DNA from: an uncultured Verrucomicrobiales bacterium
Lineage (GTDB): Bacteria > Verrucomicrobiota > Verrucomicrobiia > Verrucomicrobiales > Akkermansiaceae
Length of the DNA stretch: 40,924 nt
Direction of reading: 5' to 3'
NCBI GenBank assembly: GCA_937951675.1
Contig: CALFBI010000016.1
Location: 1-40,924, forward strand
In this document: one piece after another, positions 8,778-24,024 of the stretch
Position numbering within the stretch: position 1 is the stretch's first letter
Layout: every line of letters starts with the position of its first letter
Notes under the pieces: model-generated
What the model saw: only the letters and a program-made list of their open reading frames with translations
Database searches by the model: none
Told to the model about the DNA's origin: nothing
Made by a program: the position numbers and the translations under genes

Positions 8778-9731
8778 TCACCAAGTAGAACGAATCAGAT
8801 CCATGCTCTTCATGATTTCGATAGACTCTGTTAAGGGCATCACCGGACTTTCAGAAACCCCCTTCTGAAGGCACTCTTCGAAATGCGCTACCTGATACTG
8901 AAGGCCTGTGCTAGTATAAGGCTTCTCGATGAGCTCTTCTTTCCCATCGAAAGTCCGAAGTAAGGCTCGATGCCCCCACCAACAAGGAAACTCCAGCCAG
9001 ATGCTTCCTTTACTTCCTGAAATTTGAGTCGTTGTTTCAAGCCGGGTCACCATCGAAGATTGCGCCGTCGCAGTTTGCCCCTCTCCATAATCAAAGATCA
9101 TCATATTTGACGCATCGACTCCTCCTTCATCTTGGGTCGCATGGGATAGAATTTGGGCTGGTTGCCGGCCAAACATCCAAGAGAGGTAACTGACAGGATA
9201 AATCCCCACATCAAGAAGCGCCCCGCCTCCTTTTTCAGGGTCCCATAAGCGGCTTTTCGGGTCGGGCTGTGAAGGATACCCAAAGCTACTCTGAATAGAG
9301 ATCAGCTCCCCAATGGCTCCTTCTTTCACCCACTCCCGAACTTTTTGATGATGAGGTAAAAAACGAATCCACATCGCCTCCATGCATAAAACTCCTTCCT
9401 CTTGAGCGACTCTTTGGATGCGCCGGGCCTCTTCCTCATTCATACAGAGCGGCTTTTCGACCAGAACGTGTTTTCCAGCCCGCATGGCTAAAATAGCATG
9501 CTCGGCATGAATAGGATGCAACCCTGCAATGTAGACGCACTCAATTTCATCCCAATGAATCAACTCTGAGTAAGTAAGGCTTTTTGCCTCAGGCACCCAT
9601 TTTTTACAAAAATGTTTCGCTCTTTCTGGCGAAGATGACCCAACCCCTATGATTCGAGCCCCTTCTAGCTCTCGCATTCCTATGGTCCATTGACTTGCAA
9701 TACGTCCTGCTCCAAGGATTCCCCAATTCAT
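8778..9731 (-). CDS. Gfo/Idh/MocA-family NAD(P)-dependent oxidoreductase
   Basis: The 317-residue protein opens with a Rossmann dinucleotide motif (MNWGILGAGRIA). The family EKP motif follows (HVLVEKPLCMNEEEA, about residue 90), then the C-terminal half with GGGALLDVGIYPVSYLSWMFG. Members oxidise or reduce sugars, inositols and similar polyols in the cytoplasm; the substrate cannot be read from the sequence. The frame is open upstream to a GTG at 9773. The Rossmann motif normally lies at the very N-terminus, so the start is the ATG at 9731 or the one at 9743. Neither has a clear Shine-Dalgarno. The gene is divergent from the DUF4175 operon and separated from it by about 200 bp. Confidence 0.88.
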   Translation of the reverse strand: MNWGILGAGRIASQWTIGMRELEGARIIGVGSSSPERAKHFCKKWVPEAKSLTYSELIHWDEIECVYIAGLHPIHAEHAILAMRAGKHVLVEKPLCMNEEEARRIQRVAQEEGVLCMEAMWIRFLPHHQKVREWVKEGAIGELISIQSSFGYPSQPDPKSRLWDPEKGGGALLDVGIYPVSYLSWMFGRQPAQILSHATQDEGGVDASNMMIFDYGEGQTATAQSSMVTRLETTTQISGSKGSIWLEFPCWWGHRALLRTFDGKEELIEKPYTSTGLQYQVAHFEECLQKGVSESPVMPLTESIEIMKSMDLIRSTW

Positions 9732-9904
9732 TTCACGAAACATGCCAGGAAGCACCAATGTGGTCAATTCCACACCTTTCGAACTCAGAAATCATACCCT
9801 CCACCCCCCTATTCATCACAAAAAACTCTCAACCTCAAAACTTGATGGGATTTGAGAGATTTCCCGCTGGATGCACGACGCTAGAACTGTAGAGTATCTT
9901 TCTT

Positions 9905-9933: not shown

Positions 9934-12612
9934 ATGCCTGAACCCAAGTCTGCCTCAAACAAACAAACAGAGCCCCTTCCAGCGGCTTTGCTTGAGCAGC
10001 TAGATACTTTCAAAAAAGAGCTTTGGCGTCGTAAAACTCGAGAAGCCTTTCTCGCCGGAGTGGGTGGACTCATGATCTCATTCTGCCTCGTTCTGGTTCT
10101 GGACCGGTTCATCAGCAGTCCTGGTTGGTTTCGACTGCTCATTTTGGTTGCTGGAGCTTCGATCTCAGCCATCTTTTGCCCTTACTGGATTCGCCGCTGG
10201 ATCTATGGACACCGAAACGACGCCCAACTAGCCCGCCTGATTGCAAAACGTTTCCCCCATCTTGGAGATCGGCTTCTTGGAGCGATCGAGCTTCACTCCG
10301 ACCATTCTTCCGGGAAAAATGATTCCCCCGAACTTCGAGCGGCCGCTTTACGAGTAGTCACCCGAGACGCTGCTCAAAAAGATCTCTCCATTGCGCTTCC
10401 TAAAAAACGGGAAAAACCTCTCCTCATTGCAGGCCTCATTGCCGCCTTCTGTATCATTACCGCCTTCGTTATTTCTCCTCGGGCCGGGGTGACTTCACTC
10501 AAACGCTGGGCGATGCCGCTTTCCCAAACGGAGCGCTTCACCTTCACTCGGATTCAGCCTATTGATCGCACTCATCTCGTTCCTTTCGGGGAACCTTTTG
10601 AATTCCGTATTCAACTCTCTCCATCGACGCAACAACGCCCTCAACACGCTCAGGCAAAGCTCGGGAAAACTCAAACTCGGATGACTTCCTTGCAGAATGA
10701 TTCCTACCTTTTCAAATTTGACCCGATCCAGCAGAAAAGGGTTCTCCAGCTCTCACTTGGGGATGCCAAACACCGCATTTCAATCATTCCAACGCTGCGA
10801 CCTTCCTTAGAAAACATCCAAGCTCACATTCAAAGCCCCTCTTATCTGAGTGAAGAAAGTGTCACGATTGACCTTAAGTCAGGAGTTTTGAGTGCTCTCG
10901 TTGGAAGCCAAATAAAAATCGAAGCCGAAGTGTCTCGCCCACTCAGTAAGGCTACAATGAACCTTCTAACGCAAAAAGGAGAGGCTCCAACCTCAACAAA
11001 TCTCCCACTCACAATCTCTTCCGAAAAAATCATGGGCCATTCTTTTACAGCTCAAGAAACTCCTGGAGAACTACCTGTGCAATGGGTTGACCACTTAGGA
11101 ATCGAATCTAAAAAACCATTCCAGATCCGATACCGCCCGGTCATCGATCAAGCTCCCCTCACTTATATTCAAGGAGTTCAGCGTGAAATCATCATCCTCC
11201 CAGAAGAAACCATTCGCTTAGAGCTTAATGCTGAAGATGACTTTGGGCTCCTCGAATTTGGGGTCTCTTGGAAAGGGCAACATACTCGTCCTACTGATGA
11301 GGCCTCCGCCCTAGGGGAAGTCGCCTTTAATGACCTCTCGATAGGGAAAAAGAAACACCAAAAAACATTCGAATTTTCACCTTCTGCTTTTGGAATCTCC
11401 CCTCAAAAAGTCATTCTCCACGCTTTCGCCAAAGACCAATACCCTGGCCGGGCTCGAATTCTCTCCACTCCGATCACCATCTACGTCCTGACTCGTGATG
11501 AGCACTCTGCTCTTCTCAAAGATAAGTTCGATCAACTGATCGAAAACCTTGAAGAATCTCTACGACGGGAGCAGCAATTGCACGATCAAAACGAGCGCTT
11601 ACGAGAACTCAGTGGTAAACAACTACAGCAAGAGAAAAAAAGAGAGCTTCTTTATGAGCAAGAGATCAGCGAAGCACAAAGTGTCGAGACTCTTCAAAAA
11701 ATGCACACGGAAATGGCCGAGATTTTCCAGAATGCCCTTCGCAATGGTGATATTGATAAGGACACGATGAAAACGATGTCGCAGCTCTTACAAAAACTTA
11801 AAGAACTTGCCGAAGAAGACCTCCCTGCCGTTAAGAAATTCCTTGAAAAAACACAACAGTCTCGCCTCACACCTGAACAAGCGAAAAAAGAACTCACTTC
11901 TGCCACGACTCTTCAAAAAGAAGCTCTCGAAAAAATGCGCGAAGCTCTTAATGAAGCAAACGATGCAAGTGACAGCTTTGAAGAAGGAACGTTTATCAGT
12001 CGCCTCAAACGAGCTTCTCGAGAAGAAGAAAATATCGCTCGAACCCTCATTAAAAATATCACCGAAATCGTAGGGCTTAATGTAAGCGAGCTCGACCCAA
12101 AGCATCTTCGAATGATGAACGAGTTAAGCGAGCAACAAAAACGCACCGCTAATAATCTTTACTGGATTCGTGATGACCTCATCCACTTTCAAGAACGAGC
12201 TCCAAAAGAAGTCTATGAAAAGCTCATCAACATCATGACCACAAGTCAGGCCGAGCTTGAGCTGGAGTATGTTTACCAAAAATTAAATTCAAACCTCACC
12301 TACGTCTCGATTAGTGAAGCTAAAAAATGGAGCGGCATTATTGCGCAATGGGCCAAGCTCCTCGAAGACGAAAAGAAAAAAGAACAAAGTCAATCTAATG
12401 GAGAAGGGCAACAAGGAGAAAGCCCTGAAGACGAAGATTTTGAATTCATGCTTAAAGTCATGCAAATGGTTCAAAAACAACAAGACATCAGAGCCCGCAC
12501 CCGTGCATTAGAAAAACTACGCCGTGAACAGAGTGAGCAAAATTTCCTCACCCCTCCTCCTCAGCCGCTCGAAAACAAAGCACCACCTCAACAAGAGAGA
12601 GAGATCTTATGA
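9934..12612 (+). CDS. DUF4175-family membrane protein with long coiled coil
   Basis: This 892-residue protein starts with a Pro/Lys-rich leader and has three transmembrane helices (about residues 39-57, 65-85 and 162-180). A conserved soluble loop with IAKRFPHLGDRLLGAIELH lies between helices two and three. A beta-rich, Ig-like extracytoplasmic region (about 190-515) includes ELNAEDDFGLLEFGVSWKG. A long Glu/Lys/Gln-rich coiled-coil region follows from about 520 to the C-terminus, which ends in a Pro/Gln tail. This layout fits the DUF4175 family of Planctomycetes and Verrucomicrobia, whose function is unknown. It is the first gene of a seven-gene operon and overlaps the next gene by ATGA. A 12-bp palindrome lies just upstream. 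There is no Shine-Dalgarno at the ATG. Confidence 0.82.
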   Translation: MPEPKSASNKQTEPLPAALLEQLDTFKKELWRRKTREAFLAGVGGLMISFCLVLVLDRFISSPGWFRLLILVAGASISAIFCPYWIRRWIYGHRNDAQLARLIAKRFPHLGDRLLGAIELHSDHSSGKNDSPELRAAALRVVTRDAAQKDLSIALPKKREKPLLIAGLIAAFCIITAFVISPRAGVTSLKRWAMPLSQTERFTFTRIQPIDRTHLVPFGEPFEFRIQLSPSTQQRPQHAQAKLGKTQTRMTSLQNDSYLFKFDPIQQKRVLQLSLGDAKHRISIIPTLRPSLENIQAHIQSPSYLSEESVTIDLKSGVLSALVGSQIKIEAEVSRPLSKATMNLLTQKGEAPTSTNLPLTISSEKIMGHSFTAQETPGELPVQWVDHLGIESKKPFQIRYRPVIDQAPLTYIQGVQREIIILPEETIRLELNAEDDFGLLEFGVSWKGQHTRPTDEASALGEVAFNDLSIGKKKHQKTFEFSPSAFGISPQKVILHAFAKDQYPGRARILSTPITIYVLTRDEHSALLKDKFDQLIENLEESLRREQQLHDQNERLRELSGKQLQQEKKRELLYEQEISEAQSVETLQKMHTEMAEIFQNALRNGDIDKDTMKTMSQLLQKLKELAEEDLPAVKKFLEKTQQSRLTPEQAKKELTSATTLQKEALEKMREALNEANDASDSFEEGTFISRLKRASREEENIARTLIKNITEIVGLNVSELDPKHLRMMNELSEQQKRTANNLYWIRDDLIHFQERAPKEVYEKLINIMTTSQAELELEYVYQKLNSNLTYVSISEAKKWSGIIAQWAKLLEDEKKKEQSQSNGEGQQGESPEDEDFEFMLKVMQMVQKQQDIRARTRALEKLRREQSEQNFLTPPPQPLENKAPPQQEREIL

Positions 12613-13211
12613 AAGTCTTCATCCCCTTACTGGCATTCATCACCCTTCCCACTTCCCATCTACTAGGATTTGAAGAAGAGAAGCACCAGCAACGTTCTGC
12701 TAAAATCGCAACTGCTCAGGATGAGCTTGGAGCTGATTTACAGGAGCTGATCGAAGAGCAAACGAACGAGGCTGTGATCAGCTTCTTAGAAGAATCTGAA
12801 GAAATTGTCGCCGAAGCCGCTTCCGCTCTCACTGATTCTGACACCTCGGGGAAAACAATTGCTGCCCAGACCGAAGTCATTGAGAAAATCTATGAAGCGG
12901 CCAAATCCAAACAACAGGAACAACAAAAACAAAACGGTAAAGGAAAACCCTCTCCATCGTCTGCCATGATGGAAATGATGGAACGCATGATGGGTAAACA
13001 AAATGACGAACAACAAAAGTCAACGCCTTCGGGAGGAGATGGTTCATCAGGAAACTCTTCTGCTCCTAACACTACGGACCCTTCTGAAGTCACCTCTGAT
13101 GCTACGACTAAGAAACGAAAAATCCCTTCACAAAGTGGCATCACCGGGAAATCCCTTCCTTCTGAATTCCAAGACCTGATTCAGGCTTATAACCGAAAGC
13201 CCTCCGAATGA
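12609..13211 (+). CDS. Small secreted low-complexity protein of the DUF4175 operon
   Basis: This 200-residue protein has a signal peptide (about residues 1-20, ending near HLLGF). A Glu-rich helical region (about 25-105) follows, then a Gln/Lys/Ser/Gly low-complexity stretch with a Met-rich patch (MMEMMERMMGKQ). It ends in a short conserved-looking tail, LPSEFQDLIQAYNRKPSE. A similar tail (Leu-Pro-x-Glu-Phe ... Tyr) occurs in small secreted partners of DUF4175 proteins, but I do not know a family name. ATGA junctions at both ends show tight translational coupling. It may be a structural partner of the coiled coil of the preceding protein; that is inference. Confidence 0.75.
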   Translation: MKVFIPLLAFITLPTSHLLGFEEEKHQQRSAKIATAQDELGADLQELIEEQTNEAVISFLEESEEIVAEAASALTDSDTSGKTIAAQTEVIEKIYEAAKSKQQEQQKQNGKGKPSPSSAMMEMMERMMGKQNDEQQKSTPSGGDGSSGNSSAPNTTDPSEVTSDATTKKRKIPSQSGITGKSLPSEFQDLIQAYNRKPSE

Positions 13212-14200
13212 ATTTCTTTAAAATCATCTTCATTATTATTTTCTCAGCTCTCTCTCTGAAAAGTCAATCTCTTGATAGTGAGCGATCGAGCGGGCACATT
13301 CCTGCCGAGATTGAGAGAATGTATCAACGAGGGTTAAAGTATCTCATCAATACTCAAGAAGACAACGGAAGCTGGCCAGGGCGAGAAGGCAGCGAACCGG
13401 GAGTCGTCGGCCTCTGTATTAAGGCAATCTTGGCTCATGGGGAAGATGCTCAGTTTGGTCCTTATTCACAGAACATTCAAAAAGCTCTCGACTACATTAT
13501 CAGCACCCAAAACACCGAAAATGGGATGATCGGTGAAAGCATGTATAACCATGGATTTGCATTACTTGCTCTTGCAGAGTGCTACGGGATAATTGACCAT
13601 CCTAAACTTGCCAGCTCGCTAGAAGCAGCCTTAGCACTCACTATCGCTTCTCAAAAAAACAATCAGAAAGGAGCCTGGCGATACTCACCCGAAGCCCTCG
13701 ACGCCGACTCAACGGTTACGGGATGCCAATTAGTTTCTCTTTATGCGGTGCAAAATGCAGGCATCCCTGTCCCAGATGAAGTCTTCCAAAAGGCTATTGC
13801 TTATCTTGAGAAATGCCGCACCGACGAAGGGTCTTACAGCTATACTGATAATCGCTCAAACGCTCGTGTCACTTTAAGCGCAATCGGAGGTCTCTGTGTC
13901 GCCTTGGAACGTAAAGATAATGATCCTCGCGTCAAAACGACTCTCCAGTATCTCAAAAAAAATATCAATTTTCGAGACCGCACTTACCCCTATTACTTAG
14001 AATACTATCTCTCTCAAGCGCTCTTCCAACTAGATGACGAAACCTGGAAAGAATGGAATATCAAAAACACTCGTTATCTCGCCACTTTACAACGCTCTAA
14101 TGGCTCTTGGCCCGGAAATCGTTCCGAAGCTTTTAATACCTCCGGAGCACTTCTCTCACTGGCACTTAATTATCAATTTCTTCCTATTTACGAAAAATGA
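13208..14200 (+). CDS. Secreted alpha/alpha-toroid protein (prenyltransferase/squalene-oxidase repeat)
   Basis: The 330-residue protein has a signal peptide (about 1-20) followed by a terpenoid-cyclase-like toroid. It carries QW-type motifs (QxxxGxW) at both ends of the domain: QEDNGSWPG near residue 51 and QRSNGSWPG near residue 298. Between them are repeats such as SYSYTDNRSNARVTLSAIGG. At the place where squalene-hopene cyclases have the catalytic DxDD, this protein reads DADSTVTG, so the last acid is Ser. True hopene cyclases have about 600 residues or more, and this half-size exported protein is unlikely to cyclise squalene. Proteins of this type are common beside DUF4175 or MoxR genes in Planctomycetes and Verrucomicrobia. 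Both ends overlap neighbours by ATGA. Confidence 0.85.
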   Translation: MNFFKIIFIIIFSALSLKSQSLDSERSSGHIPAEIERMYQRGLKYLINTQEDNGSWPGREGSEPGVVGLCIKAILAHGEDAQFGPYSQNIQKALDYIISTQNTENGMIGESMYNHGFALLALAECYGIIDHPKLASSLEAALALTIASQKNNQKGAWRYSPEALDADSTVTGCQLVSLYAVQNAGIPVPDEVFQKAIAYLEKCRTDEGSYSYTDNRSNARVTLSAIGGLCVALERKDNDPRVKTTLQYLKKNINFRDRTYPYYLEYYLSQALFQLDDETWKEWNIKNTRYLATLQRSNGSWPGNRSEAFNTSGALLSLALNYQFLPIYEK

Positions 14201-15606
14201 AATCTTACTCCTTTTTCTTTTTCGCTTGTCTGGTCTCCTTTGTCTTTGGCGAACCTTACCCTGATACTTTACATTTCCGACAGGGCGATTTCATCCATGG
14301 CCAGTTCCATGAATTTCACCCATCTCAGCAACTGAAGTGGCAGCGTAGCGACGAAACCCCTTCTCTTACTTTTCCTCTCACTGACCTTCATTCACTTCTC
14401 ATTAATAAAGGCACCCCGCTGAAGCAATCTCCTCACCGCTCGACCATCACTCTCTCTAATGGTGACCAACTCTCCTATTCCCATATCCTGTTCGAAAAGA
14501 ACCAAGTTCAACTAGAGAGTGACCTTTTAGGCTCTCTTGTCGTTCCTCTCGACCTCGTCTCATCCATCCACCCTCACCCTGATGGAGAAAAGCTCCTTTA
14601 CCACGGTCCTTATCATGCCGAAAAATGGCGCTCTCTCTACGATCCTGAAGCTTACGCTCTATTGAGTGATGATGAAAAGGAACCCTTTTGGCATTTCCGA
14701 GGAAATGCTTGGTATTCAAATAGTAAAGCACTCCTGCAATGTCCGGTTCAACTTCCTCTGAAAGCACGCGTCCGGCTCCTCATGGAATGGCGCGGTAGTA
14801 TTTCAACTTCTTTAGTCCTCTACGGAAAGCCCTACCAGAATGAGAAACCCTCGAATCTCTCAAAAAAAATCGAAGACGCTTATGACACTGGTTACGTCAT
14901 GCAAATTCAGCACTCTTACGTCACCCTTCAAAAAATCTACCGGAATGCGAAAGGAGTCGTTCGCCTCAAAAGAATGATCACAAACAGTCCTTCTTACCCC
15001 CGTCTCACCGACCAGAAGGGAAAACTTGAAGTCCGGAGTGATTTAACAAAGGGGAAAATCCTTCTTTTCCTAGGGGACCAATTCGTCGCTCAATGGTCAG
15101 ACCCCAGCCCCCTCAAAGAGCTTGGGAACGAATTCTGTATCAAGCACAATAATTACTCAAAAACCGCAAAACTAAAGATCAGTAATCTTACCATCACTCA
15201 CTGGAATGGTATCATTGATTCCGCGATGAGTCTGACACATCCAAAGAAAGACATCATTCTACTCGCAAATGGTTTAGACCGAATGAGTGGAACCCTAAAA
15301 TCCATCACCGACACCCATGTAGTTTGGGATAATGATTATACAACCCTCAACATCCCGCTCACCGAAGTGGTTGAAATCAAGAGAGCCTCCCGCAAAGTCC
15401 TCACCCCTTCTTCTCTTTCCAAAAAATCTTATCATTTCATGCTAGGGACCCGTGACCGGCTGACCTTATCAAACCCTATCTCGCAAAAAGAAACGATCTC
15501 CGCAGATTCGCTCCTCGGTCCTATCTCTTTCTCTCAGGATTACTTATCTGAAGTCTTCTTCTCCCAAGAAAACAACCCTCTTAGTCATTGGAATGATCAG
15601 TTTTAA
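14197..15606 (+). CDS. Secreted protein, first of three tandem paralogs (SH3/LSm-like and ConA-like modules)
   Basis: A 469-residue exported protein (signal peptide about 1-18) with no family name known to me. By eye it has two small beta modules at the N-terminus (about 23-70 and 82-128). Each is built on a pattern of hydrophobic-x-Asn/Gln-Gly-Asp...hydrophobic...pro-leu, as in LSNGDQLSYSHILF and GSLVVPLDLVSSI. A central domain of about 200 residues, resembling a concanavalin A/LamG-like jelly roll, runs from YHGPYHAEKW to LTITHWNG. Two more beta modules (ANGLDRMSGTLKSI, GTRDRLTLSN) end the protein. The next two genes repeat the same plan. It overlaps its upstream neighbour by ATGA and its downstream neighbour by 14 bp. 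A surface or periplasmic binding role is likely but not proven. Confidence 0.75.
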   Translation: MKSYSFFFFACLVSFVFGEPYPDTLHFRQGDFIHGQFHEFHPSQQLKWQRSDETPSLTFPLTDLHSLLINKGTPLKQSPHRSTITLSNGDQLSYSHILFEKNQVQLESDLLGSLVVPLDLVSSIHPHPDGEKLLYHGPYHAEKWRSLYDPEAYALLSDDEKEPFWHFRGNAWYSNSKALLQCPVQLPLKARVRLLMEWRGSISTSLVLYGKPYQNEKPSNLSKKIEDAYDTGYVMQIQHSYVTLQKIYRNAKGVVRLKRMITNSPSYPRLTDQKGKLEVRSDLTKGKILLFLGDQFVAQWSDPSPLKELGNEFCIKHNNYSKTAKLKISNLTITHWNGIIDSAMSLTHPKKDIILLANGLDRMSGTLKSITDTHVVWDNDYTTLNIPLTEVVEIKRASRKVLTPSSLSKKSYHFMLGTRDRLTLSNPISQKETISADSLLGPISFSQDYLSEVFFSQENNPLSHWNDQF

Positions 15607-16936
15607 AATTCACCAACTTATCATCACTCTTCCTCTTCAGATTCTCTCGTTTCTGTTACTAGGACTCTCGACCCTCTCGACAAAAGGTGCTGACCGCATC
15701 ACCTTTTTATCGGGAAATGAGTTATCGGGAAAAATCCTAAATATTACTGACACTGGCTCGGTGCAGTTTCTTTTTGAACATGCCAAAAACAAGGCTTTCA
15801 TTAAACCCAGTAGCTTGAACCGAATCTTTTTTGATCAAAGCTCTTCTGAAGCACCTCCCAAACATCATCAACGAGTGGGTCTCATTAACGGCGATATCTT
15901 ATCGGGTGACATCCTTAGCTTCGACCTTAACACCCTGGTGATTGATCCTTGGTATTCGGCTCCCATTACCATTCAGAGAGCTAACCTTTCATGGATCAAA
16001 TTTGGAATTCTAGACGCCTCTCCTGTTTATTCAGCCCCTTACCAACCTGATGAATGGATCAATGAGACCTCTGCATGGGAAGTCGAAAAGAAATCTTTCA
16101 AAAGCCTCAGTAATGGCTCGATCACCCTCAAACGTCCCACTCCCTTAAATTTTATCGTTCGTTTTAAGATCTCTTGGCAGACGACTCCTAATCTCCGTTT
16201 TTATTTATGCAGTGAATTCAAAAACCCTAGTGAGCAATCTGATCGTTACTCTTTCCAATGTCATTCTCAGGGCATCCAATACTCACGCCAACTCTTCCAG
16301 GACCGGTTTGTGACCAAAGCACTAGGGAAAACGCCATTCAACCCCACTGATTACCCGGATAAAACAATCCAGGTCGAAATCCGCGTCGATCGCGAGCAAA
16401 ACATTGCTTACCTTTACCTCAACGGACAGCGTGAAGATATTTTCTTAGACTACTATCCTCACCCTCCTCAAGGTGACTATTTCATTATTGAAAGTAACCA
16501 TACCAATGAACATGAGCACCAGGTCTCTGACCTTTCGATCTACCCTTGGGATGGTAAAAACCATCTGGATGAATCACTCTTAGAAAGACAAGAGCCCGGT
16601 GATCTCTTACTCGAACACGAAGGAAATCAATACCTTGGTTCTTGTCTCGGCATCGTGACCCAAAATAAACAATCAGCCATTGCGCTTGAACACCCCTTTT
16701 CCGAAGAGCCGCTCTTCATTCCTCTTGAGAAAATTTCACTTTTACAACTCAAAGAGCGTAATAACTCCTCTCCTCCTACCGCGCCTTTCATCTTTGAGCT
16801 CAGTAATGGAGGCCGTCTTCTTCTCAATAAAGTTCGCCTAGAGGACTCGCAAATCATCTTAGAGCACCCCCTTCTAGGACCCTTATCTTTCAACCGGAAA
16901 GCTCTCAAAAGCATGACCTCTACCCACTCTAAATAA
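15593..16936 (+). CDS. Secreted protein, second of three tandem paralogs
   Basis: This 447-residue protein has a signal peptide (to about residue 30) and the same architecture as the gene before it. There are two N-terminal NGD-type beta modules (FLSGNELSGKILNI, LINGDILSGDILSF). A central ConA-like domain runs from YSAPYQPDEW to LSIYPWDG, with VEIRVDREQNIAYLYLNGQ as its best-conserved strand pair. Two C-terminal modules follow (LEHEGNQYLGSCLGIV, LSNGGRLLLNKVRL...GPLSF). Pairwise similarity to its neighbours is low but the block order is identical, which suggests old tandem duplication. The ATG lies 14 bp inside the upstream gene, and the stop forms TAATG with the next gene. Confidence 0.75.
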   Translation: MISFKIHQLIITLPLQILSFLLLGLSTLSTKGADRITFLSGNELSGKILNITDTGSVQFLFEHAKNKAFIKPSSLNRIFFDQSSSEAPPKHHQRVGLINGDILSGDILSFDLNTLVIDPWYSAPITIQRANLSWIKFGILDASPVYSAPYQPDEWINETSAWEVEKKSFKSLSNGSITLKRPTPLNFIVRFKISWQTTPNLRFYLCSEFKNPSEQSDRYSFQCHSQGIQYSRQLFQDRFVTKALGKTPFNPTDYPDKTIQVEIRVDREQNIAYLYLNGQREDIFLDYYPHPPQGDYFIIESNHTNEHEHQVSDLSIYPWDGKNHLDESLLERQEPGDLLLEHEGNQYLGSCLGIVTQNKQSAIALEHPFSEEPLFIPLEKISLLQLKERNNSSPPTAPFIFELSNGGRLLLNKVRLEDSQIILEHPLLGPLSFNRKALKSMTSTHSK

Positions 16937-18384
16937 TGAAAATAATTGGAATTTCGCTCCTCTTACTTTCAAGCTTCATTGCGAGTAAGACTCTAGCTTC
17001 ACCTCCGCTCATCGAAGCCTTATTCTCAAGTGGAGACCGGATCCGAGGACAAGCTCTTAAGCTCACTCAGGACCAGGATTTTAAAAATGAAATCCCTCTT
17101 TTAGCTCGGGGCCAAAAAGAAAGCTTACACTGGAATTCTTCCGACTTTGAGTCCCCTCTGATCCTTAATCCCAAAAAGCTACTCCGACTACAGGTTATTA
17201 ATAGTAACGTTCCTTCTTTTTCACCATACGGGAAGCATAAAGCCACCGTCACCTTAACGAATCAAAGTGAGTTACACGGCGAACTACTAAGCCTCTCTCC
17301 AGAGCGTATTCAGCTACGCACTCCTTATGCTGGGGAACTCAGCATCAACCCTTCCATGGTGCAGGCTCTTGAGATCTCGGATCATGATAAAGTGATTCTT
17401 TCCGGCGAGCCGAAGCTTGAAGACTGGGACATCATTTCTGATGAAGAGGAAACCCAAGCTCAGTGGAGTGTTGAACGCCATGCCTTCAGTGCCCCTAAAG
17501 GAGGCACCATGTTACGCCAACTCGAACTTCCTCAACGCTGGAAAATGAGTATGCAGTTGGAATGGGAAAATAGGTTCAACATGATCATTGGATTTAATAT
17601 TAATAATAACGAGTCTGATGACACCCTTCCGGAAACTGGCTTTTTTGCTCAAGTCAATGGCCATCGGAGCATTCGACTAGAAAAACGCTTTTTCGAAGAC
17701 GGTGATCATAAAATCATGCCCCTCGAATCTGCGATTTCTTTTCAAAACATCAACGCCTTACACCAAGGAGAAAAAGGGAAACTAGAGATCTATGCTGACC
17801 TGAAAAAAGGCGAATACGCTTGTTACCTAAATGGAATCGAAATCTTCAGAACGCTCGATTCTAACCCCGCTTCAAAGCCTCAAGGTAAATACATCATGAT
17901 TCAATCGCTCAAACACGCTCCAATCATGCGACTAAGTCAACTTGAAGTTTCTCATTGGTCAGGGAAGCTTCCTAGCCAAATTGATGCCAACCGCCTCAAA
18001 AACGAAATCTCACTATCGCACCAATCCGGGCGCATGGTGCGACTTCGTAATGGGGATGCCCTTAAGGGGAGTATTGGTAAAATTGAGAATGGGCTGATGG
18101 AATTACAAACCGATATTGCCACTCTGCAAATCCCGATCAATCGTCTTGCTAAAATAGACCTTACTTCTAATAAAAAAGAAATCCCTCGCCTTTACCCAGG
18201 AGATGTCAGGGCCTGGTTGAAGCATGGCGGATTCATCGTCTTTCAGCTTCACCAAATCAGCCCAACCTCTCTTTCTGGATACAGCCAGCCTTTTGGCAAA
18301 GCTCAATTCGATCTCAATGCATTCTCCTTGATCGAAACTAATATTTATAACGATCTTCTGCATGATCAACCCCAACTTCCATGA
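16936..18384 (+). CDS. Secreted protein, third of three tandem paralogs
   Basis: This 482-residue exported protein (signal peptide about 1-21) repeats the plan of the two preceding genes. N-terminal modules are FSSGDRIRGQALKL and LTNQSELHGELLSL...GELSI. The central ConA-like domain runs from LSGEPKLEDW to LEVSHWSG and includes GKLEIYADLKKGEYACYLNG. C-terminal modules are LRNGDALKGSIGKI and LKHGGFIVFQLHQI. The YLNG turn and the Leu-x-Ile/Val-x-x-Trp-x-Gly end of the central domain recur in all three paralogs. Its start shares a base with the preceding stop (TAATG) and its end overlaps the deacetylase gene by ATGA. The function is unknown. Confidence 0.75.
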   Translation: MKIIGISLLLLSSFIASKTLASPPLIEALFSSGDRIRGQALKLTQDQDFKNEIPLLARGQKESLHWNSSDFESPLILNPKKLLRLQVINSNVPSFSPYGKHKATVTLTNQSELHGELLSLSPERIQLRTPYAGELSINPSMVQALEISDHDKVILSGEPKLEDWDIISDEEETQAQWSVERHAFSAPKGGTMLRQLELPQRWKMSMQLEWENRFNMIIGFNINNNESDDTLPETGFFAQVNGHRSIRLEKRFFEDGDHKIMPLESAISFQNINALHQGEKGKLEIYADLKKGEYACYLNGIEIFRTLDSNPASKPQGKYIMIQSLKHAPIMRLSQLEVSHWSGKLPSQIDANRLKNEISLSHQSGRMVRLRNGDALKGSIGKIENGLMELQTDIATLQIPINRLAKIDLTSNKKEIPRLYPGDVRAWLKHGGFIVFQLHQISPTSLSGYSQPFGKAQFDLNAFSLIETNIYNDLLHDQPQLP

Positions 18385-19529
18385 CTTGCGTTCTTATGAG
18401 GTATTTAAGCTGCCTTCTTTTTCTTACCCTTTTTCCTAAGGCCTTCGCAGAAGAGCTGAAACAAGATTCCCTTCTCAACCATAATAAGACCCAAGTGGTG
18501 GCGCTGGGTTACCATGAATTCTCAGCGGTAAAGAAAGGAAGTGCGATGCGTATTACCACTTCTCTTTTTGCAGAGCAAATGCAGGCCATCAAAGACTCTG
18601 GCATTCGAGTCATCAGCCTCACCGAGTTTTTGCAATGGAGAAAAGGTCATCTAGAGCTCCCCGCTCAGGCCGTTTTGATCACCATCGATGATGGCTGGAT
18701 TTCAGTTTATGAAGAAGCTTTTGCGGTGCTCAAAAAACACCGCTTTCCTTTTACCATCTTTCTCTATCAGAATTACCTCAATGGTGGAGGACGAGCACTC
18801 ACGACTACCATGGTAAATGAAATGCTTCAGCATGGTTGCGAAATTGGCTGCCATTCCAAATCACACCCTCTTCCTTCCTCTTTCCGCAAAAAACAAAAAG
18901 TCTCTCCTGAATCTTATCAAAAATACCTCCAAACCGAAATTCTTTTCCCTAAAGCCTTTTTCGAAAAAACGTTTCAGCGCCCTGTTACTACCTATGCCTA
19001 CCCTGGAGGTTACCAACCACCTGAAACCCTATCACTTCTTTCCAAGTGGGGCTACGAAGCTTGCTTCACCGTCAAGCCTGGAGTCATCACTCGTGAAACT
19101 CCTTTTGAAGCACTCCCACGTCATATTGTTTACGGCCATCTCCCTCAGACCTTCTTAAGAGCTCTCGACTTTCCCGTCACAAAAAATTCCAGCTTCTCAC
19201 AAAACCAGAACACTCAATTCCCAGTCCTACCCAAAGCTGGCAGTAGCTCTAGCGACCGGTTTGCTCAAATCGAGATCGATCTATCTTCTCTTACCGACCT
19301 TGACCCTCGCTCGATACGTTTAGAAGTAAGTTCTTATGGAAACGTGCCACACTCTTTTGATCCCATCAAACAATCTGTTTCATGGAAACCTTCTATCCCC
19401 TATCGAAGCGAAGAAGTCATCGCTCGCCTTTTTTGGAAAAAAACAGGCCAGAAACACTCTAACCTTCCAATGACATGGTCATTCCAAATCGAGTTAGAAA
19501 ATTCTTATCTTCAGTCTTTAGGCCAGTAA
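18381..19529 (+). CDS. Polysaccharide deacetylase family protein (NodB/CE4-like), secreted
   Basis: The 382-residue protein has a signal peptide (to about residue 24). The NodB-fold deacetylase domain shows VVALGYHEF, the acidic motif TIDDGW with paired Asp, the metal-binding HSKSHP motif (H-S-x-x-H-P type) and YAYPGGYQ. A further domain of about 120 residues at the C-terminus looks beta-rich. CE4 enzymes remove acetyl groups from GlcNAc-type polymers in the envelope using a divalent metal. This is the last gene of the operon, suggesting that the system acts on or binds an extracellular polysaccharide. The start ATG overlaps the previous stop; a second ATG at 18396 is possible. Confidence 0.88.
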   Translation: MTCVLMRYLSCLLFLTLFPKAFAEELKQDSLLNHNKTQVVALGYHEFSAVKKGSAMRITTSLFAEQMQAIKDSGIRVISLTEFLQWRKGHLELPAQAVLITIDDGWISVYEEAFAVLKKHRFPFTIFLYQNYLNGGGRALTTTMVNEMLQHGCEIGCHSKSHPLPSSFRKKQKVSPESYQKYLQTEILFPKAFFEKTFQRPVTTYAYPGGYQPPETLSLLSKWGYEACFTVKPGVITRETPFEALPRHIVYGHLPQTFLRALDFPVTKNSSFSQNQNTQFPVLPKAGSSSSDRFAQIEIDLSSLTDLDPRSIRLEVSSYGNVPHSFDPIKQSVSWKPSIPYRSEEVIARLFWKKTGQKHSNLPMTWSFQIELENSYLQSLGQ

Positions 19530-19615: not shown

Positions 19616-20680
19616 TCACTCGCCTAGCATCCCGTCTAAAGTCATCAACAAAACACCTCCTGGGACACCTACATACTGAAGCTCACGTTTCCCATTAAGG
19701 ATATAAACCAAAGGAACGCTCCCTACTCGGTAATCTTTATGGATTTTTCCATTTTCATCTAAAAGCGTTCGCCATGGAGCTCCACCAGAAACTTTCGTCG
19801 CTCTGACTTGATTCGAGCTATCTTTTGAAACTCCTATTAAAACTGCGCTCGTTCCTTTTAGCCGATCACCCACTTTGCGCATCACGTCCAAAACGCGATC
19901 TCGATCTGGCATATCATGAGACCAAAAGAAAAGAACCTGCGTCTTCCCCTCATCCTGTTTACTTTGGTAAGGCTGAAGAGATTCATCACTTGATACTATT
20001 TCTGGAGTGACTCTTCCCTGAGACAAATTCGAGATAATATACACCTCTTCCCCGGCAATTTCACCAACGGTGCTCTCTCCTATCGGAACATCGACACTTT
20101 TGATAATAGATTCCCGAAGAAATTGAATCCGCTCTTTCAAAACCTCAGGGTTTCCTCCCAGAGTTTTCAGAGCAAAGGATAATCCGAGCGCGGCTTGTCC
20201 TTTGACGACATCATTCGGATTCTCTTTATAAACTTTCTCTAATGAAGACCTAATCTGAGCCCCTCCAACCATTCCTAGCGAAATACAGGTCGGGCCAACA
20301 GACGCGTGAGCAAAGTGTTTCAACTCCACTGCTTTCGCAATACGGTAAATGGGAGCTTTCCGAATAAGTTCGGCTGAAGGTGATTGGTGCACAAAGGCAG
20401 GTGCATTTTGAAGAAGCCATTCACAGTATGGAAGAATCCAAGGTTCTTTGAGCGAAGTCTTTAATTCATTCCAGAGTTTTGCCGCTGCCGTATTGACTTC
20501 CGGCGCCTGAGCCGAAAGAACTCGCCTTTCTTCCTCACTATTTGCACTGAGAAGCTTTCGCTGAAAGGCTGATTTTTCGTATTCAAAGGTCTTCTGAATG
20601 AGAGAAGCCTGTCGAGGGCTCCCTGCGTTTGCCATAAGAAGGCTTGCACAAAGCGTTCCTAAGATGACTAAGGTTTTCAT
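19616..20680 (-). CDS. Secreted protein with C-terminal thioredoxin-like fold lacking the CxxC
   Basis: The preferred start gives 354 residues and a clean signal peptide (MKTLVILGTLCASLLMANAG); the frame is open 19 codons further upstream. The first 220 residues or so are helical, with no family I can name. From about residue 240 the sequence follows a TlpA/AhpC-type thioredoxin fold: KTQVLFFWSHDMPDRDRV, then GTSAVLIGVSKDSS, then VGSVPLVYILNGKRELQYVG with the cis-Pro loop (SVP). Where redox-active members have CxxC, this protein has HDMPDRD, so it should not act as a disulphide oxidoreductase. It is the last gene of a minus-strand group with the SET protein and another secreted protein. Confidence 0.72.
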   Translation of the reverse strand: MKTLVILGTLCASLLMANAGSPRQASLIQKTFEYEKSAFQRKLLSANSEEERRVLSAQAPEVNTAAAKLWNELKTSLKEPWILPYCEWLLQNAPAFVHQSPSAELIRKAPIYRIAKAVELKHFAHASVGPTCISLGMVGGAQIRSSLEKVYKENPNDVVKGQAALGLSFALKTLGGNPEVLKERIQFLRESIIKSVDVPIGESTVGEIAGEEVYIISNLSQGRVTPEIVSSDESLQPYQSKQDEGKTQVLFFWSHDMPDRDRVLDVMRKVGDRLKGTSAVLIGVSKDSSNQVRATKVSGGAPWRTLLDENGKIHKDYRVGSVPLVYILNGKRELQYVGVPGGVLLMTLDGMLGE

Positions 20681-20762
20681 AATGGCGATCTTGCTAATTC
20701 TCTCAGCATGAAGCAACTCTTGAAAACTTGAAATCACAAAACAACTTTTCCCTTACTCAGAC

Positions 20763-21317
20763 TCAGCCTGTTTTCTTTTTCTTTCCTTCCTTTTGTTTGA
20801 GTAACTCATCGAGCTGTTCCCATTGTTCTTGGCTCACGATGTAACCTTTACAATTCTCAGCGCTACAACGACATGGATGATCTTCGTAACATTCGATATC
20901 AAAGCCATAATCAAAGGAAAGCTCTTCTCCTTTCGCAATTCCGCGAGCCGCGTAAACAAAAATTTGGTCTCCTTCGATCCAGGTTTCGCAATTAGGATCA
21001 CAAGAATGATTAATGAGGCGGGCAATATTCCATTCTACACTCCCGTCGATATCAAACTCATCATCTAGATTAAAAATATAAACTGCGGCATCACCTGTCT
21101 GTTCAGCATGCTCGACCTGAGCCCAAGACCGACGCTCGCTTTCTTCTTTTCCTACTTTTTCTCCCACATATTCAATGACGCGGGACCCTTTTTTAATCGC
21201 TTTCTTCGCGTAGAGCCCCTGACCATGAATCTCCGAAGAAAAAGGAGCGCAATACTCACTCTGAGCCCGTTTTTTAAGCTCTGCGATCTCTTTTTTTGTC
21301 CACTCTTCTTTCGGCAT
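20763..21317 (-). CDS. SET-domain protein-lysine methyltransferase with post-SET zinc motif
   Basis: The 184-residue protein is almost entirely a SET domain. GQGLYAKKAIKKGSRVIEYVGE forms the SAM-binding start (G-x-G and YVGE). LINHSCDPNCETW is the NHSCxPN motif, and GEELSFDYGF carries the catalytic-site Tyr. A canonical post-SET Cys cluster follows (PCRCSAENC, C-x-C-x4-C). With the second Cys of NHSCDPNC this can bind zinc, as in eukaryotic methyltransferases. The C-terminus is Lys-rich (KQKEGKKKKTG). There is no signal peptide, so the enzyme is cytoplasmic. The target is unknown. The frame extends upstream to a TTG at 21332; the ATG at 21317 is preferred. It lies 29 bp after the preceding minus-strand gene. 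Confidence 0.9.
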   Translation of the reverse strand: MPKEEWTKKEIAELKKRAQSEYCAPFSSEIHGQGLYAKKAIKKGSRVIEYVGEKVGKEESERRSWAQVEHAEQTGDAAVYIFNLDDEFDIDGSVEWNIARLINHSCDPNCETWIEGDQIFVYAARGIAKGEELSFDYGFDIECYEDHPCRCSAENCKGYIVSQEQWEQLDELLKQKEGKKKKTG

Positions 21318-21346
21318 CGTAATAGGAATCAATCTGTTTGGTTCTC

Positions 21347-21946: not shown

Positions 21947-22114
21947 TTGCCCTACACTGGTGCCTTCATCTGGCCTAGGTCAAGCGCTTGATGCCTCGAA
22001 ACCCTGAAAACCAATTTAAAAGAGCCCAGACCCACCTGGAAAATACTTTTGTTAGATTAAGCAATGAATTCTTTCTTTTCATTCCCTCTCTTTTCCTTCA
22101 AAAGGGCTACCTTC

Positions 22115-23029
22115 ATGGCAAAACAATCACTAGGTAAAGGTTTAGGCGCTCTCATTAAAAAACAAGAGAACGCGACCGCAAAGACTTCTTCCCCGGTTGA
22201 TTCTGCTGATCAGGTAAAGCAAGTTCCTTTAAACGAGATTGTCCCAAGCCCTCTGCAGCCTCGCCTTCGTTTTGGAGAAGAACCTCTCGATGAGCTCGTC
22301 GAATCGATTCGGCAGCATGGAATCATTCAACCGCTCATCGTCCGGAGAGTTGGCGAAACTCTAGAACTCATTGCAGGAGAACGTCGTTGGCGTGCGAGCA
22401 CGAAACTTGGACTTTCAACCGCGCCGGTGATCATTCGCGAAGCTTCTGATCAAGATGTCTTGGAAATGGCTCTCATTGAGAACCTTCAACGCCAAGATCT
22501 CAATGCGATTGAAGAAGCTGCTGGTTACGTTCGATTAGCCAAAGAATTCTCCCTCAAGCAAGAAGACATCGCAAAACGCGTCGGTAAATCAAGAGCGGCC
22601 GTTGCCAATGCGATGCGCCTCATGGACCTCTGCGAAGATGTGCAAAGAATGGTTGCTGCCAGTCAGCTCACCGTGGGCCATGCTAAAGCGATTCTAGGCC
22701 TCAAAGACGCCCAGGCTCAAAAAGTCGCAGCCACTCAGGTCATTGCGAAACAAATGACGGTGCGGGCAACCGAGAAATTCGTGCAAGACTTCCTCAAGCC
22801 CAACCGAGAAAATGCGGGAGGGAAAGCCTCTGCGGGCAGTAAAAGTAATCTTGACCCAGAGACCGCCTCTTTAATCAAAAATCTACAGAGCCATCTACGC
22901 ACCCGCTACAGCACTCATGTTTCGATTACTCATTCCCCTAAAAAAGGAAAAATCGAACTCGAATACTATGGGAACGATGACCTTGATCGCATTCTCGACC
23001 TGATGGGAATCACTCCTGATATTTACTAA
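22115..23029 (+). CDS. parB: Chromosome-partitioning protein ParB
   Basis: This 304-residue protein has the standard ParB order. The short start MAKQSLGKGLGALI resembles the ParA-contacting N-terminus. The ParB/Srx CTPase domain follows, with PSPLQPR, GIIQPLIVR and the GERRWRA motif. ENLQRQDLNAIEEA comes next, then the helix-turn-helix parS reader (SLKQEDIAKRVGKSRAAVANAMRL). A C-terminal dimerisation segment ends near ILDLMGI. It binds parS sites and, with ParA and SMC, segregates the origin. The frame is open 17 codons upstream, but the ATG at 22115 has an AAAGGG element and gives the usual N-terminus. No parA or perfect parS site is visible here. Its TAA overlaps the next ATG. Confidence 0.95.
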   Translation: MAKQSLGKGLGALIKKQENATAKTSSPVDSADQVKQVPLNEIVPSPLQPRLRFGEEPLDELVESIRQHGIIQPLIVRRVGETLELIAGERRWRASTKLGLSTAPVIIREASDQDVLEMALIENLQRQDLNAIEEAAGYVRLAKEFSLKQEDIAKRVGKSRAAVANAMRLMDLCEDVQRMVAASQLTVGHAKAILGLKDAQAQKVAATQVIAKQMTVRATEKFVQDFLKPNRENAGGKASAGSKSNLDPETASLIKNLQSHLRTRYSTHVSITHSPKKGKIELEYYGNDDLDRILDLMGITPDIY

Positions 23030-24024
23030 TGAAAGTCACTTCCTGGCGGCTTTCTCCTTGCGCGATGAAAAGAGTTCTTTTTGAAAAACCAGCGTTTTTC
23101 ATAATGACCCTCGGCAGCTTATTTCTAAGCTGCCAACCCTCTGAAAAGACCCTGAAAAAAGCCGCTCCAGCGCCACCACAAGAGATCGGTGAACTCGCTT
23201 ACTTTCATACAGAGCGCATTTTAGAATACGGGCCTCGTCCGGCAGCTTCTCAAGGCCTCGCCAAAGTGCGGGCCTACTTATCAACCCAGCTCCAAGAACG
23301 CGGGTGGGATGTTTCTCTCCAACGCGTTCATCGCCCCACCCCGAAAGGAACCCTTCTTTTTGAAAATTTACGAGCTCGCCTTCATCGACCTCGCGCCTGG
23401 GAGCAACCTATCGAAGGAATCCTATGTGCTCATATGGATTCGAAAGAAATCGAAGGCATTGAATTCCTAGGTGCAGATGATGCGGCCTCTGCCGTAGGCA
23501 TGATTCTCGCCCTTCTCGACCACCTTCCAAAAGAAGCACTCGAGCAACTTGAACTTGTTTTCTTCGATGGTGAAGAAGGAATTGGAGGCGAAGCGATGAC
23601 CTTCAATAACGGACTCTATGGTAGTAAAGCTTACGCTCGAATGTGGCAGGGCAAAGCCAATAAGCCGAAATTCGGTCTCCTCCTCGACATGATTGGTCAC
23701 GATCAACTCCGACTAACCTACCCTTCTGACTCTCCGCCAGAGCTAATAGCCATTCTTTCCGAAAGTGCCGATTCTACAGGTTTCGCCCAATACCTTACAA
23801 AGTTCTCAGGGGCTATTTTAGATGACCATGTGCCTCTGAATCTTGCCGGTATTCCTACAATTAATATGATCGGAGACTTCACCGCCTCAGATTGGTGGCA
23901 CCAAAAGGAAGACAATCTGTCTCTTATTTCGAAAAAAAGCCTGAGTATTAGTGGCCAAATCATTCGCGCTTTTTTACTTACACGCCTTAAAGTCGAATCC
24001 ACCCCCGCTTCTTCTCAGCCCTGA
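23029..24024 (+). CDS. M28-family glutaminyl-peptide cyclotransferase-like protein, probable lipoprotein
   Basis: The 331-residue protein shows the glutaminyl-cyclase branch of the M28 zinc-peptidase fold. It has LCAHMDSKEIEG, GADDAASAVGM (zinc Asp), FFDGEEG (Glu), NGLYGSKAYA, LLLDMIGHD, ILDDHVPLNLAGIP and WWHQKEDN (zinc His). The order and spacing parallel animal QC, which forms N-terminal pyroglutamate, although an aminopeptidase activity is possible. The N-terminus has a hydrophobic segment ending in LGSLFLSCQPS, a weak lipobox, so export as a lipoprotein is likely. There are three candidate Met codons before that segment. The first forms TAATG with the parB stop and indicates translational coupling; internal ones at 23065 and beyond would shorten the leader. 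Confidence 0.82.
   Translation: MKVTSWRLSPCAMKRVLFEKPAFFIMTLGSLFLSCQPSEKTLKKAAPAPPQEIGELAYFHTERILEYGPRPAASQGLAKVRAYLSTQLQERGWDVSLQRVHRPTPKGTLLFENLRARLHRPRAWEQPIEGILCAHMDSKEIEGIEFLGADDAASAVGMILALLDHLPKEALEQLELVFFDGEEGIGGEAMTFNNGLYGSKAYARMWQGKANKPKFGLLLDMIGHDQLRLTYPSDSPPELIAILSESADSTGFAQYLTKFSGAILDDHVPLNLAGIPTINMIGDFTASDWWHQKEDNLSLISKKSLSISGQIIRAFLLTRLKVESTPASSQP

Follow-up and report, generated by a model that had tools for sequence, protein, structure and literature searches.

A run of seven overlapping genes in an uncultured Verrucomicrobiales bacterium raises the question of whether it encodes a self-contained envelope machine, as had been proposed from its sequence (the original prediction), or one part of a larger system. 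The run lies at positions 9934-19529 of contig CALFBI010000016.1, whose 40,924 nucleotides are referred to here as the window, and its genes are named A to G in order. Our comparative analysis indicates that six of them, A to F, are the detached second half of an operon whose first four genes encode a MoxR ATPase, a DUF58 protein, a protein with a BatA N-terminal domain and a VWA/GATase-like protein (hereafter the MoxR half), a partner that the original prediction missed. A to F probably make up the half that sits in the membrane and periplasm in a split system of ten genes, of the MoxR-Bat type, in Verrucomicrobiota.

The two halves lie together in more distant relatives. In two families of the same order (f2 and f4), genes for MoxR, DUF58, the BatA-domain protein and a VWA/GATase protein of ~735–825 amino acids (aa), in which the VWA and GATase1-like signals are weak, stand directly before A. 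Among order-level relatives (L162-L164 and L170), the four genes are contiguous with A, a B that is not always present, C and the paralogs, largely without gaps. Outside the class, 12 of the 15 loci (L222-L236) show the arrangement MoxR–DUF58–BatA–VWA/GATase–A–(B)–C or paralogs, again largely end to end; of the other three, L222 has BatA and VWA/GATase near A, its region ending before MoxR and DUF58 are reached, and no link between A and the MoxR half is seen in L227 or in L232, the latter belonging to the same family. In the genome from which the window derives (the source genome), the MoxR half is found on a different contig and is therefore not adjacent to A to F. Genomes assembled as a single contig also keep the halves well apart, with positions of 283,658 versus 501,675 in G018 and 2,352,440 versus 3,363,284 in G035. 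The simplest reading of these gene orders is a single ancestral operon that would have broken between VWA/GATase and A in Akkermansiaceae. Two further MoxR clusters were observed in the source genome: one on contig C9 (L064:9265-19900) comprises MoxR, a 592-aa unknown protein, an ABC ATPase, a 493-aa unknown protein, DUF58, a BatA-domain protein and a VWA protein, and the third, on C19 (L062:10615-15587), is more classical, with VWA/TPR.

Inheritance also ties the halves to each other. Across 289 genomes of the phylum with completeness of at least 90%, using cut-offs of E below 1e-90 for a strong gene A and E of 1e-75 or better for VWA/GATase, 49 genomes contain both genes, 239 contain neither, and one contains VWA/GATase only, as a fragment at a contig end. 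A set of 193 relatives, for which the cut-offs (about 1e-60 for A and about 1e-75 for VWA/GATase) were set by eye between the score groups of orthologs and paralogs, gave 148 genomes with both, 35 with neither, 7 with VWA/GATase only and 3 with A only (Fisher p about 6e-28, kinship ignored); several of these 10 discordant relatives are fragmented assemblies. The presence of A and VWA/GATase switches together within genera g3, g6, g14, g18, g23 and g25. This points to several co-losses that occurred independently, and the presence of the toroid gene C tracks the same pattern. Since nearly all genomes without A and VWA/GATase retain gene G, the losses cannot be put down to a general artefact of assembly. 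We regard a functional linkage of the two halves as highly probable.

Genes A to F form a conserved unit in Akkermansiaceae. Strong homologs of A occur in most of the 193 relatives, which were searched with this gene, and the order A–B–C–D–E–F recurs in the family among 32 regions mapped from relatives. Eighty loci were also fetched independently; in the 56 that extend at least 6.5 kilobases past A, the order is ABCDEF in 43, ABCEF in 6, AB only in 6 and ABCD in 1. As six orthologs keep the same order across dozens of genomes, A to F are genes and not chance open reading frames (ORFs). The original prediction had made its case depend on a gene order shared beyond close relatives, and the order is kept well beyond them.

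Within the window, all seven plus-strand ORFs start with ATG and lie where they had been predicted, and their successive overlaps from A/B to F/G (4, 4, 4, 14, 1 and 4 nucleotides) are as claimed (Table 1). These overlaps suggest one transcript and translational coupling, as far as sequence can indicate; a promoter and terminator scan returned counts not above those in shuffled sequence. A divergent gene upstream and a convergent gene downstream delimit the unit. Only C and G exceed a Pfam threshold, with A, B, D, E and F lacking an over-threshold family. Signal peptides, predicted for all proteins except A, were judged by eye without a dedicated predictor: the N-termini of B, C, E, F and G are signal-peptide-like, and that of D is hydrophobic but falls under the cut-off used. 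Further along the window are a small protein with SET-domain-like motifs (NHSCDPNCE and ELSFDYG, by eye) at 20763-21332 on the minus strand and, at 22064-24024, a ParB-like gene followed by an M28-peptidase-like gene, both judged by eye from their translations.

Table 1. Features of the seven-gene unit, its neighbors in the window, and the MoxR half in the source genome (bit scores given against the cut-off).
Feature	Location	Strand	Description
Gene A (892 aa)	9934..12612	+	Inner-membrane protein: three transmembrane (TM) segments, three immunoglobulin (Ig)-like domains, helical/coiled-coil part
Gene B (200 aa)	12609..13211	+	Small, secreted, charged helical/low-complexity
Gene C (330 aa)	13208..14200	+	Secreted alpha/alpha-toroid (squalene-cyclase C-terminal superfamily)
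Gene D (469 aa)	14197..15606	+	Secreted paralog 1
Gene E (447 aa)	15593..16936	+	Secreted paralog 2; 14-nucleotide overlap with D
Gene F (482 aa)	16936..18384	+	Secreted paralog 3
Gene G (382 aa)	18381..19529	+	Secreted CE4 polysaccharide deacetylase, PgaB/IcaB-like
Upstream neighbor	8778–9773	minus	Divergent GFO/IDH/MocA-type oxidoreductase
Downstream neighbor	19616–20737	minus	Convergent redoxin-domain protein
MoxR-DUF58-BatA-VWA/GATase cluster	Contig C6, L063:9287-15438		Followed by a glutamyl/glutaminyl-tRNA synthetase-like gene
DUF58 protein	L063:10340-11227		PF01882, 145.7 bits vs 23.4
BatA N-terminal-domain protein	L063:11256-13202		PF07584, 68 bits vs 25.9

Three hydrophobic stretches occur in gene A (38-56, 64-82 and 163-181), and its AlphaFold2 model (mean predicted local distance difference test [pLDDT] 85.3, predicted template-modeling score [pTM] 0.57) contains three beta-sandwich domains at ~205-518 followed by long helices and a coiled coil at 521-871, in agreement with the three-helix membrane protein with a long coiled coil that had been described. 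The best structural matches of the sandwiches are Ig-like folds, with modest Z-scores. By positive-inside reasoning, the N-terminus and residues ~93-160 probably face the cytoplasm; this loop holds many invariant residues in an alignment with 42 homologs. The label DUF4175 did not survive, as PF13779 has no match in gene A, none over the cut-off in a genome-wide scan, and a hit in only 1 of 20 relatives (E = 0.0068); without a match in gene A, the name should be given up or, at most, taken as a loose label. A second, paralogous copy of A in the genome was considered and rejected, the sole match being a coiled coil on C8 (E = 3e-5). A complement/alpha-2-macroglobulin-like reading, suggested by the combination of Ig-like domains with a toroid and by Foldseek rows for A, was likewise discarded, because the template-modeling scores (TM-scores) are low, such rows reflect Ig folds of a generic kind and a conserved thioester was not seen.

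Gene B evolves fast, yet it is in place in nearly all loci. The toroid assigned to gene C was confirmed by a match to PF13243 above the gathering score (36.2 vs 26.1 bits), and a weak profile match to solved cyclases was also found. Its C-terminal tail, LPIYE[KR] (window 14180-14197), is near-invariant in 32 aligned members, distant families included, and may be a docking motif, a candidate proposed from this conservation. Residues 165-169 form a mostly conserved D-A-D-[ST]-[TS] that lacks the third D of DXDD, its positional equivalence to the cyclase motif not being established. C was rejected as a true terpene cyclase because its scores fall far under the curated cyclase cut-offs. In one genome of genus g3, a toroid fragment of 77 aa (L058:7748-7981) lies immediately upstream of an intact toroid gene.

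The description of D, E and F as three paralogs holds: hhalign aligns them almost from end to end, with a probability of 100 and E about 1e-53. The AlphaFold2 model of F (pLDDT 84.8, pTM 0.80) shows small barrel-like beta units at 26–87, 101–149, 366–407 and 423–467, between which residues ~150-345 form a concanavalin-A/CBM66-like beta-sandwich. This sandwich aligns with CBM66, DUF1080-like and legume-lectin-like folds at Z-scores of 14-18.5, with a root-mean-square deviation of about 2.4-3.8 A over 145-185 residues and about 10% identity. The top Foldseek rows for F are multi-domain proteins matched through the lectin-like sandwich at a TM-score of about 0.3, and were taken to show resemblance of fold only. 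Glycan binding by D–F is, judging from the model, a possibility to which we give less than even weight. Weak sequence matches were seen to NF047503 at the C-terminus of D, to Hfq_1 at residues 94-136 of E and to Sm-protein profiles at 333-383 of F; the small beta-barrels of F were not accepted as Sm/Hfq folds, since these matches are weak and the structure search did not confirm them. Families f2 and f4 have a single relative of D-F, ~1,100 aa long, that ends in an AhpC-TSA/redoxin domain (L069:11469-14705 and L059:8174-11533); Pfam detected no redoxin domain in D-F of the source genome.

The identity of gene G as a CE4 deacetylase was upheld by its match to PF01522 (67.8 vs 23.1 bits) and by metal motifs (TIDD at 101 and HSKSH at 158). 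Its membership in a complete set of seven genes was not: G occurs in 186 of the 193 relatives, with one match per genome, is kept in nearly all genomes without A, C and VWA/GATase, and adjoins A-F in no locus examined other than that of the source genome. An ffh (SRP54) homolog, co-directional with G, is the first or second gene downstream of it in 10 of 20 inspected regions. This wide distribution, unlike that of A-F, together with the lack of adjacency elsewhere, rules out the deacetylase as a core gene; G is a recent addition to the operon in the source lineage, and its coupling to F is lineage-specific. Three genomes of genus g7 (L171–L173) have G directly after VWA/GATase, probably as the result of a single event, and provide a modest hint of a functional relation to the system. 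Of the proposal of an envelope machine that binds or trims a polysaccharide, the conserved envelope unit and a lectin/CBM-like domain in the model of F are thus retained, whereas trimming by the deacetylase loses its main support, G not being core.

How the two halves might work together is suggested by what is known of related proteins. The partners of MoxR ATPases, which resemble chaperones, are proteins with VWA domains, and a complex associated with the membrane has been proposed for Bat proteins (PMC11834572, PMC3557215). A cytoplasmic MoxR ring with DUF58, BatA and VWA adaptors could assemble or remodel a complex of the inner membrane to which A belongs; the likely docking site for the MoxR half is the conserved cytoplasmic loop of A at around 95-155. 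The Ig-like stalk and coiled coil of A would reach into the periplasm, where they would carry the toroid C and the small protein B. The secreted D, E and F, in each of which small beta-barrels would flank a lectin/CBM-like domain, would form the far end and probably bind glycan or cell wall. The predicted architectures of A and F suit such a membrane-to-envelope complex. We lean slightly toward a physical complex of the halves. The fuller picture, in which A-F and the MoxR half make up a previously undescribed machine of about ten proteins that spans the envelope and is driven by ATP, running from the AAA+ ring through A and the toroid to glycan-binding periplasmic proteins in Akkermansiaceae and other Verrucomicrobiota, is put forward tentatively, and its topology and ATP-driven remodeling are likewise presumed.

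Several observations weigh against this interpretation. Contact between the halves is something we infer, the split in Akkermansiaceae means that their co-transcription is not required, and C-F lie apart from A-B at separate sites in some genomes (e.g. G010, G022 and G032). The co-occurrence statistics ignore phylogeny. For the fourth protein, assignment to VWA is weak in the source genome, where its only Pfam match is a sub-cut-off GATase1_like, and its homolog in L069 matches VWA at E = 0.0019, also below the cut-off. A common fold, moreover, is no proof of glycan binding.

Other explanations account for part of these data. A self-contained seven-gene machine that binds or trims polysaccharide with the CE4 deacetylase as its enzyme, as originally predicted, would suit the TIDD and HSxxH motifs of G, the lectin/CBM-like fold of F, the 4-nucleotide overlap that couples G to F and the position of G in L171-L173, but it appears improbable because G stands beside A-F in no other examined locus and is found in nearly all genomes without A-F, often beside ffh, while A-F are tied instead to MoxR-Bat genes. 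The association of Bat operons with oxidative stress in Bacteroides and Riemerella (PMC11834572) and the redoxin domain that ends the D-like protein of f2 and f4 raise another prospect, that the MoxR-Bat half and A-F guard envelope or respiratory proteins against oxidative stress as a stress or aerotolerance system, by means of the domain that some relatives have. We consider this unlikely, given that D-F of the source genome lack the domain and that deletion of bat in Leptospira biflexa left growth and morphology unchanged, with no demonstrable protection from oxidative stress (PMC3557215).

The halves could also be linked without forming a complex, A-F being clients or substrates that are folded or matured by a MoxR-Bat chaperone module. 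The chaperone-like nature of MoxR ATPases is compatible with this, and if A-F were the sole client, the loss of one side would leave the other unneeded, and co-losses would follow. A general chaperone, however, would be expected to outlast one client, and very few genomes carry one half alone, so that we see this alternative as rather unlikely. A split ten-gene system of the MoxR-Bat type is the reading we prefer.

Comparison with known systems places this gene set near, but outside, those already described. Like the Bat or MoxR-DUF58-VWA operons of Bacteroides, Leptospira, Francisella and Riemerella, it has a leading MoxR AAA+ ATPase of the AAA_3 type, a DUF58 protein, a BatA N-terminal domain and a proposed membrane-associated complex. 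Unlike them, it has no TPR or BatD Pfam match in A-G or in the DUF58, BatA and VWA/GATase proteins of L063, it includes a VWA/GATase-like protein, a three-TM Ig/coiled-coil protein, a toroid and lectin/barrel paralogs, and its Akkermansiaceae version is divided over two loci. Given the missing TPR and BatD matches and the distinct envelope set, we class it as a variant of the Bat operon and not as a Bat operon proper. The MoxR-vWA ternary conflict systems (PMC7159879) share the MoxR and VWA core, and their third components vary, some occurring in verrucomicrobia; they are described around VMAP, iSTAND, FtsH or beta-propeller components, of which we saw none, and the proteins of A-F are for the most part secreted or embedded in the membrane. 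Gene C shares the toroid-superfamily signature with squalene-hopene cyclases and prenyltransferases but is one secreted 330-aa toroid unit, below the cut-offs of curated models, with the LPIYE[KR] tail. The central domain of F is alike in fold to CBM66, DUF1080-like and legume-lectin-like sandwiches and differs by its flanking small beta-barrel units. Among DUF4175 (PF13779) proteins, Acinetobacter AdvA is essential for division (PMC7481262); gene A resembles them in its N-terminal TM helices and as an otherwise uncharacterized envelope protein, and is set apart from them by Pfam, not by direct comparison with AdvA. Our literature search found no description of A-F with the MoxR half, which is a weak sign of novelty, as many journals lay outside the search.

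These findings correct a likely misreading, in that the operon is not defined by its terminal deacetylase, and an apparently isolated operon, A-F, gains a testable partner in the MoxR half. About 13 of the 22 genomes sampled from genus g3 carry the set, and the other nine have neither it nor the MoxR half, so that these genomes are natural loss strains open to comparison. MoxR–Bat operons are widespread and their targets mostly unknown, and the envelope proteins almost perfectly co-inherited with one here are candidates for its partners or clients.

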